Part shown: positions 1 through 2,736 of the stretch, in pieces
Position numbering within the stretch: position 1 is the stretch's first letter
Layout of the letters: each line of letters opens with the position of its first letter
DNA from: an uncultured Phycisphaerales bacterium
GTDB taxonomy: Bacteria > Planctomycetota > Phycisphaerae > Phycisphaerales > UBA1924
Assembly: GCA_937871415.1 (NCBI GenBank)
Contig: CALMQD010000591.1
Coordinates: forward strand, 1-5,604
Direction of reading: 5' to 3'
DNA length: 5,604 nucleotides
Notes under the pieces: generated by a model
Told to the model about the DNA's origin: nothing
The model's input: the letters and a program-made list of their open reading frames with translations, nothing else
Databases searched by the model: none
Program-made: the position numbers and the translations under genes

Positions 1-141
1 CATGGCCACCTGGATTCCGGCGCCAAGCTCTGTGTTGGAGGCGATGGTACGCAGGCGCTCCAGAGCGGTCTCCGTGAGAGCGCGATCCGGATCGTAGAAG
101 AAGTAGGAGTAGGCGCGAACGCGGCCGCGGCCCACACGCCC
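1..141 (-). pseudogene. mfd: Fragment of transcription-repair coupling factor Mfd (helicase motif VI onward), 5' part missing
   Basis: Seen: the minus-strand frame whose codons begin at 141 gives 47 uninterrupted codons to the window edge. It opens with [15 protein letters not shown], then [17 protein letters not shown], then [12 protein letters not shown]. Known: this is the order in Mfd, where the (QL)RGRVGR arginine-finger motif VI of the SF2 translocase is followed by a RAY-Y stretch, TETA-ERL-TIA and ELGAG-AM, just before the DLEIRGAGNLLG segment. RecG shares motif VI but normally has a DGF-IA pattern instead of LGAG, so Mfd fits better. Mfd removes stalled RNA polymerase from damaged DNA and recruits UvrA. 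Odd: upstream of GRVGR the frame reads RPRAGDVA, not the expected LYQLR, and that DNA belongs to the membrane-protein gene in another frame. All N-terminal domains and motifs I-V are therefore absent. Ten of 47 codons end in A or T, against 6 of the first 47 of the membrane gene, a weak hint of a different source. The rest of the gene, if present, lies left of the window. Confidence 0.82.
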
Positions 142-1160
142 AGCCACGTCACCGGCCCGCGGTCGAGCGCCGGGACCCACGGCGCCCCCAGGGCGTTGCT
201 CAAGTACACAAACCCGCTGATCCACACGGCCGAGCCGAACATCGACGTGCACGCCACCGCGCCCCACGCCGGCATCATGAGCCCCAGGATCACGCCCGCC
301 GCGAGCCCGACAATGCCGCTGAAGAAGATCACGGACCGGTGCGCGGCGGGGAGTTCGTTCCACCGCTCGCCCGCTCGGGCCGCGACCTGGTCGGCAAAGC
401 CGCGGATCCGCTGGACCGCCGGCAGTTCCGCCGCCCGCTCCGCGGCGTCACCGGCGCTCCGCTCGACCTGTTCACTCACCAGGCTCGCCAGAACGACGCG
501 CGGCGAGGGCGCGGCGGCGCGCAGCCCAGCGCGGGTCGCGGTCGCGCCGCCATCAGCCCCTGCGAAGAAACCACAGAACTGGTCGGTCCAATCGACCCCG
601 CCTGTCTCATCGCTGGTTGACCAGGTCGTTGTGACCTTCTCCCCCGCCCTCTCATCTTTCTCCGCGGCGGAGAACTCGTTGCTCTCGCCGTCGTCGTTCG
701 ACCAGCGCCAGGCTGAGTCGGTTGTGGACGGTGCGCCGGCGTCCTTGCTCAAGGGCCAGAAGTGGAGGATGGTCGCCGCGGCGAGCGGCACGAGCACGCC
801 CATGACCACCCCGAGGGCGAGGGCCATGGCGCTGCGGAACATGAGCAGACCGGCGAGGGCCCCGATGAACAGGCCGATGAGCAGGCCCCGATAAACCAGC
901 GCCGAGCCTTCGACGGCCTCGGTGCCGACCAGCGCGCTCCCTCCCAACTGGCCGAGCACCGGCGCGAGGAACGCGCCCAGCAATCCCCCCACCCCCGCGC
1001 CGACGATCAGCACGACCATCCGCACGTACCGCTCGCCCTTGAGCCAGAGAACCAGACCGGCGACCATCGCGGCCGCGACGAGCGCGTGCACCGCCCAGGG
1101 CAATGACCCGATTCCTTCGAGCACCTTGCTCATGGCGTCCATCATCGACTGAAGGGACAT
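3..1160 (-). CDS. Multi-spanning membrane protein of unknown function, 3' part lost at a chimeric junction
   Basis: I do not recognise the family. The ATG at 1160 is preceded by GGAGG with 8 bases of spacing, which fixes the start. Visible domains: hydrophobic helices at about residues 22-40, 47-69, 91-108 and 111-133, several with glycine-zipper spacing ([13 protein letters not shown]); a polar, acidic, Ser/Thr/Trp-containing segment at about 140-195; an Ala/Arg/Glu-rich, probably helical region at about 220-270; and two further helices at about 276-297 and 302-322. A last hydrophobic stretch (VTWLGVWA) starts near residue 337. The layout is four helices, a soluble middle and two or more helices. 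Genuine-looking sequence stops near residue 340-344 (about position 130-143). The frame stays open to the window edge, but from there it reads low-complexity out-of-frame protein (PTPTSST...), while the adjacent frame encodes Mfd. The natural C-terminus is therefore not in the window. It is transcribed divergently from pheA. It could be a scaffold, channel-like or stress protein, but nothing in the sequence decides this. Confidence 0.75.
124..143. other. Chimeric junction between membrane-protein gene and Mfd fragment
   Basis: The coding signal on the minus strand changes frame and identity here without a stop codon. Bases 143-124, read on the minus strand, can be translated either as LGVWAAA (a plausible membrane helix of the gene on the right) or as GRVGRGR (Mfd motif VI of the gene on the left). 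That double reading is what a short shared sequence at a recombination or misassembly point would produce. The exact breakpoint cannot be placed inside this stretch. A single base shift inside one gene cannot explain it, because a membrane protein and an Mfd helicase motif are not parts of one known protein. Confidence 0.7.
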
Positions 1161-1497: not shown

Positions 1498-2736
1498 ATG
1501 AAGAAGCGAAAGGCACAATCCCCCCGCAAGCCCAAGGCGCGCACCGCGCCCCGCTCCAAGGCCGCCGGCGGCGCGACCCCAACCGCCGAGCCCGCCGCGC
1601 TCGAAGCCCTGCGCAAGCGGATCGACGCGGTCGACAAACGCCTCGTCGGGCTCATGAACCAGCGCGCCCGGCTCGTGGTCGGCGTGGGCAAAGTCAAGCG
1701 CGCGCTCGGCTATCCGACCTACGCGCCGCACCGCGAGTCGCAGGTGCTCACCAAAGTGCTCGGGCTCAACACCGGCCCGCTGCACGCGCGGACGATCGAG
1801 GGCGTCTATCGCGAACTGATGTCGGGCTCGTTCCGCCTCGAGGTGCCCATCCGCATCGGGTACCTGGGGCCCGCCGGGTCCTACTCGCACGTCGCGGCGG
1901 TCAAGCACTTCGGCACGTCCGTCGACTTCGAGGACCTGCACACGATCGCCGGCGTCTTCACCGAGGTCGCTCGCGGGCACGTCGACTTCGGCCTCGTACC
2001 GATCGAGAACTCCATCGGCGGCGGCATCGTCGAGACGCTCCAGGCGTTCCAGGAGTTCCACAACGACGTCACGATCTCCACCGAGGTGCAGATCGAGGTG
2101 CACCACGCGCTCCTGTCGAACTGTGCCCCGAGCCAAGTGACGCACATCCACTCCAAGCCCGAGGTCTTCCAGCAGTGCCGCACGTGGCTGGCGACGCAGT
2201 ACCCGCGGGCCCACCTGGTCGCCGAGGCGTCGAGCTCGCGGGCGGTGAAACTCGCCGCGAGCGCACCGGTCCCCGTCGCTTCGCGGAGCAAGCCCCGGGC
2301 CGGCGGCGAACACGCGCACGGCGTCGCTGCGATCGGCTCGACGCTCGCGGCGCAGATCTACGGCGTGCGCGTGCTCTTCGAGAACATCGAGGACAACCCG
2401 AACAACATCACCCGATTCTTCGTGGTCCAGCCGCGCAGCAAGCCCGCGCCCAAGAGCGCCGGACCCGGGAACGACAAGACATCGCTCATGTTCGCCACGA
2501 TGAACGAACCCGGAGCGCTGGTGAACGTGCTGGCGGTCTTCCAACGCGCGGGGATCAACCTCACGCACATCGACAAGCGTCCTTCCGGGCGCGAGAACTG
2601 GCAGTACAGCTTCTTCGTCGACGCCGAGGGGCACATGGACGACCCCTGGTTCGCCAGCGCCGTCGCCCAGGCCAAGGGCCTGTGCCGCGAACTGCACGTG
2701 CTCGGCTCATACCCCCGCAGCAAGCGGATCCTGTGA
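1498..2736 (+). CDS. pheA: Bifunctional chorismate mutase / prephenate dehydratase with ACT domain
   Basis: This 412-residue cytosolic enzyme converts chorismate to prephenate and then to phenylpyruvate, the committed branch to phenylalanine. Domains: a basic Lys/Arg/Pro/Ala tail (1-32); AroQ chorismate mutase (about 34-110) with R39, R56, K67, R79 and E80 in the positions of E. coli R11, R28, K39, R51 and E52; prephenate dehydratase (about 119-311) with IGYLGPAGSYSH, LVPIENSIGGG, a SKPEVFQQC stretch and the TRF motif at 305-307 that carries the essential threonine; and an ACT domain (about 327-402) with GALV at 339-342. The ACT domain normally binds phenylalanine for feedback inhibition. The usual ESRP motif is DKRP here (359-362). 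The dehydratase carries a small extra Pro/Arg/Gly loop at about 256-276. The frame is open further upstream to an ATG at 1339, but that extension is arginine/proline-rich with no family similarity, so the ATG at 1498 is preferred. Neither start has a clear Shine-Dalgarno site. No other aromatic amino-acid genes are adjacent. Confidence 0.95.
   Translation: MKKRKAQSPRKPKARTAPRSKAAGGATPTAEPAALEALRKRIDAVDKRLVGLMNQRARLVVGVGKVKRALGYPTYAPHRESQVLTKVLGLNTGPLHARTIEGVYRELMSGSFRLEVPIRIGYLGPAGSYSHVAAVKHFGTSVDFEDLHTIAGVFTEVARGHVDFGLVPIENSIGGGIVETLQAFQEFHNDVTISTEVQIEVHHALLSNCAPSQVTHIHSKPEVFQQCRTWLATQYPRAHLVAEASSSRAVKLAASAPVPVASRSKPRAGGEHAHGVAAIGSTLAAQIYGVRVLFENIEDNPNNITRFFVVQPRSKPAPKSAGPGNDKTSLMFATMNEPGALVNVLAVFQRAGINLTHIDKRPSGRENWQYSFFVDAEGHMDDPWFASAVAQAKGLCRELHVLGSYPRSKRIL

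Follow-up and report, generated by a model that had tools for sequence, protein, structure and literature searches.

The left end of the contig analysed here appears to join DNA of two different bacteria, most likely (with a probability of about 95%) as a laboratory or assembly artefact and not as a rearranged gene. The window, meaning the whole stretch of DNA that was analysed, is the entire contig C591 (5,604 bp), and the piece of mfd at its left side is therefore a contig tip. The genome bin comprises 2.73 Mb in 615 contigs and is 77% complete. We favour the artefact because the two sides of the join differ in origin and share a nearly identical stretch there, because the join lies at a contig end, and because the membrane-protein gene that it interrupts has full-length counterparts elsewhere. 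In addition, the bin has an Mfd of its own, bases 1-400 had no other match when the contigs of the bin were searched, and the right end of the contig also departs from a sequence conserved in five of five long relatives. The features are listed in Table 1.

Table 1. Position, strand and supporting evidence of the features of the window
Feature	Position	Strand	Evidence
Foreign contig tip: actinobacterial mfd	1..117	-	Residues 9-47 of the 47-residue fragment, plus shared CG at 117-116; TIGR00580 E=1.4e-14 for 141-1
Junction stretch	116..141	-	Membrane frame GVWAAAAF, Mfd frame GRVGRGR(V)R; the best of 32 Actinomycetaceae mfd sequences matches at 23 of 26 nt
Truncated planctomycete membrane-protein gene, last 31 residues missing	116..1160	-	Full-length P0002 97% and P0003 90% identical; relatives in 39 of 60 other genomes of the same order
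pheA-like gene (chorismate mutase / prephenate dehydratase), a conserved and divergently oriented neighbour of the membrane gene	1498..2736	+	Pfam PDT 8.5e-50, CM_2 1.2e-18, ACT 1.3e-7 for 1501-2736; ATG at 1498
Probable second bad tip, right contig end	5569..5604	-	12 residues (SPGARTATSIRR) where five relatives have conserved ...VVSAC

Origins of the two sides of the join

Bases 141 to 1 of the minus strand encode 47 residues of Mfd (transcription-repair coupling factor). This had been claimed in a preliminary description of the sequence, and a profile search of the 47 codons bore it out, with NCBIfam TIGR00580 (mfd) covering all residues at profile positions 734-780. The region corresponds to what we take to be helicase motif VI and onward. 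The likeness to Mfd ends there: whereas a functional gene has a complete helicase and TRCF domain in one open frame, the piece in the window covers only 47 of the roughly 1,200 residues, lacks a start, a stop and the flanking domains, and is not a gene of the host organism.

The taxonomy of the two sides was compared separately, as had been proposed, and the Mfd side is by its matches of actinobacterial origin. Among the matches listed in a first scan, those to Actinomyces johnsonii (80% over its best segment) and to a bin of Humibacillus (71%) ranked ahead of two proteobacterial genomes with 52 and 41%. The fragment matched 368 of 396 actinobacterial genomes at E<=0.001; within the Actinomycetaceae 119 of 121 genomes matched, the best with 87% identity. 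Using the full-length Mfd of one relative as query, restricted to the region of the fragment, we also compared the best 120 of 8,000 scored candidates. The best of these 120 was the metagenomic protein P0017 with 45 of 47 residues identical (38/39 over residues 9-47), differing at residue 8, where the window has Val and P0017 has Glu, and at residue 38. The best named one among them was P0011 of Arcanobacterium haemolyticum, with 41/47.

A search for a second mfd gene in the genome, as previously advised, was successful. The bin has a single PF03461 match, which lies on another contig (C281) within an open frame 1,268 residues long; the last 715 residues of this protein were read, and the result speaks for an open frame and not for activity. 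The fragment in the window is identical to this protein at 22 of 47 residues. The presence of this separate Mfd indicates that the fusion implies no loss of DNA repair, and the suggested loss of transcription-coupled repair was rejected.

The membrane-protein frame starts with ATG at 1160 on the same strand, in a different frame from Mfd, and runs without a stop down to base 3. The Mfd frame is likewise open through the junction, so the observation that no stop separates the two held. Nine homologues of the membrane protein were obtained in a public protein search, among them P0002 (ENA source, 11 member sequences, encoded on a 3,640-bp contig) and P0003, whose name refers to a Phycisphaerales bacterium. 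The preliminary description had advised looking for an intact copy of the gene in relatives, and P0002, P0003 and P0004 are full length. Up to GVWAAAAF, P0002 and the window share 337 of 348 residues, with no difference from residue 197 to residue 348. Past this point the two diverge completely, P0002 reading VGMCVQWTGLLSP... and the window APTPTSST..., and P0002 runs on for 31 residues that are absent from the window.

The motif G-M-x-x-Q-W was seen in the continuation of all eight homologues that were compared, which are the nine from the search except P0010. Of 24 relative loci, 23 reach the cut site, and all 23 continue with the last helix and with Q in register. Because these eight homologues and 23 loci continue past the join, the window's gene is, on this comparison, without its last 31 residues. 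The membrane side is, again judged from its relatives, of planctomycete origin; the tally of 40 of 61 genomes with this protein includes the bin itself. A search for the missing tail elsewhere in the 77%-complete bin found nothing credible. One match on C192 (E=0.027, 23 residues) was discarded, as no such protein was present in the six frames looked at.

P0002-P0009 and the window protein (116-1160) form a planctomycete membrane-protein family that is weakly TM7S3/TM198-like and highly variable in its middle part. The gathering cut-off of PF13886 (TM7S3/TM198-like), 29.2 bits, was reached neither by the window protein (16.2 bits) nor by P0002 (20.7), P0003 (19.4) or P0008 (27.7). The membrane gene and the pheA-like gene stand back to back, and the same pairing was seen in 15 of 24 relative loci, counting those with both genes at E<=1e-6 within the fetched stretch.

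The sequence at the junction

The preliminary description had placed a stretch readable as either gene at 143-124. Such a stretch is present, and we refine it to about 141-120, with the switch between the sources at 118-115. Bases 141-120 fit both genes and read GRVGRGR in the Mfd frame despite being membrane-gene DNA, bases 119-118 fit the membrane gene only, and bases 117-116 again fit both. In the membrane gene, the bases of the GTT codon at 120-118 are the last of GCG and the first two of TTC, which encode the Ala-Phe also present in P0002. A Val codon is expected to follow in the membrane gene, and the window reads GCG there. Since the GTT is explained by the membrane gene and the codon that follows is GCG and not one for Val, the membrane gene must extend to 118 and can extend no further than 116, with the start of Mfd at 117-115, so that the switch is located to within about two bases.

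The Mfd reading of GTT gives Val at residue 8. In three overlapping sets of Mfd sequences, Val was found at this residue in 0/46, 0/20 and 0/120, and Glu in 38/46, 19/20 and 116/120. For the set of 46, we counted after removing duplicates and any alignment that began beyond residue 3 of the fragment; the Mfd of the bin itself is among the 46, as are two further ones from outside the actinobacteria (L038, L039). In the set of 20, L081 is from the same genome as L069. At the DNA level, bases 141-116 agree with Actinomycetaceae mfd in up to 23 of 26 bases, a near-identity estimated from relatives of the donor and not from donor DNA. For 28 of the 32 mfd sequences, none of 10,876 other placements tried in the window matched as well as the junction; for the remaining 4, some other placement equalled it.

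These comparisons bear on the earlier proposal of a misassembly or mis-cloning at a short shared sequence. An artefact is supported, but the sharing was probably not exact, as the likely donor differs at the codon just before the switch: bases 119-118 misfit Mfd in the sets examined. We think that the join probably tolerated mismatches and did not use one exact shared word, because membrane-gene bases stand at 119-118, where a walk through an exact-word graph would be expected to carry Mfd bases. The lower share of GC-ending codons in the Mfd part, which had been put forward as a weak hint of another source, was confirmed as a difference (31/39 in 117-1 against 309/347 in the membrane gene). 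However, 42 of 308 windows of 39 codons within the membrane gene were equally low or lower, and we set it aside as too weak a sign of foreign origin.

The right end of the contig

A glycosyltransferase gene runs off the right end of the contig and aligns with five long relatives only from residue 13. Just before that point all five relatives have VVSAC, and the window has TSIRR. About 36 bp at this end are thus unlike the conserved (D/E)V-VVSAC region that precedes SLLARW in the five glycosyltransferases. The DNA of the right tip had no obvious match to the conserved sequence either, and no copy of the tip with up to 3 mismatches was detected elsewhere in the bin. From the alignment, this end is likely another bad tip, about 36 bp long, and it looks as if more than one tip of the contig is wrong. 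A search of the rest of the bin for the first half of the glycosyltransferase gave no more than weak matches, on C197 (E 4.0e-5 to 0.025); we took these to be another protein and not the missing half.

Probable origin of the chimeric end

Three readings other than an artefact were weighed. One denies the presence of Mfd altogether and takes the 47 residues as a chance reading of the alternative frame of the membrane gene. It would agree with the lack of a Pfam match for the short 47-residue piece, and with a search of 5.8 billion proteins in which the 48-residue fragment found no homologue, a search that considers only proteins of 0.55-1.75 times the query length and so excludes full-length Mfd. 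The TIGR00580 match and the identity with P0017 refute this reading, the matches in actinobacterial genomes also stand against it, and its probability is negligible. The preliminary description had instead suggested a real rearrangement driven by microhomology, in which the organism's own mfd broke and became fused to the membrane gene, both being truncated. That suggestion is the one point in its favour. The fragment is too distant from the Mfd of the bin to be the host's own, and the latter lies in a long open frame on another contig, which refutes the idea for that Mfd and makes it highly improbable overall.

Short similarity at a join is also used by illegitimate recombination. An actinobacterial mfd fragment could have crossed phyla into a planctomycete chromosome, joining and cutting the membrane gene where the two unrelated genes nearly match over about 26 GC-rich bases. 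The assembled contig does read this way, with an open frame. The foreign part, however, ends with the contig after about 117 bp, other assemblies carry full-length counterparts of the gene, and the opposite end of the contig also looks wrong. We consider such an event very unlikely, and a biological rearrangement is not supported.

For the artefact, we lean towards a route through library preparation. A single strand of the membrane gene would have annealed to mfd DNA over the approximately 26 near-matching GC-rich bases, with a two-base mismatch at 119-118, and would have been extended on the mfd DNA; the resulting chimeric read would then have ended up in the assembled contig tip. Chimeric reads with mismatched bases have been described to arise when homologous single strands mis-anneal during end repair (PMC8674242). 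The microhomology-induced chimeric reads (MICR) of that work resemble our case in short homology, mis-annealing, extension and a mismatch close to the join, which in the window would be the TT at 119-118. They differ in that they were described within one genome, whereas the join in the window is between two organisms. The parallel is partial, because that work concerns fixed tumour tissue and states that amplification-based sequencing is free of such artefacts (PMC8674242).

A direct misjoin by the assembler is an alternative form of the same artefact. We regard it as the less expected route, yet a possible one, above all if the true donor has Val at residue 8. Assembler misjoins are a known cause of chimeric contigs, for which small-word graphs and sequencing errors have been named (PMC7299287). 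As in the chimeric short-read metagenome contigs described there, two genomes are found in one contig, here, by their matches, those of a Phycisphaerales bacterium (P0003) and of a member of the Actinomycetaceae, and they are linked at similar sequence. Those contigs are described as arising mainly between related species that share words, whereas the join in the window connects different phyla through about 22 bases that are similar between unrelated genes (PMC7299287).

By either artefact route, the observation is most likely an ordinary one and not a real biological feature of the organism. It calls for caution, as contigs of bins like this one can end, within roughly their outer 150 bases, in foreign DNA whose frames are fully open, and such an end can give the impression of a gene fusion, a truncation or horizontal transfer. 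Settling this case was cheap: the end of the gene was compared with complete counterparts, and the tip with the copy that the bin itself carries.
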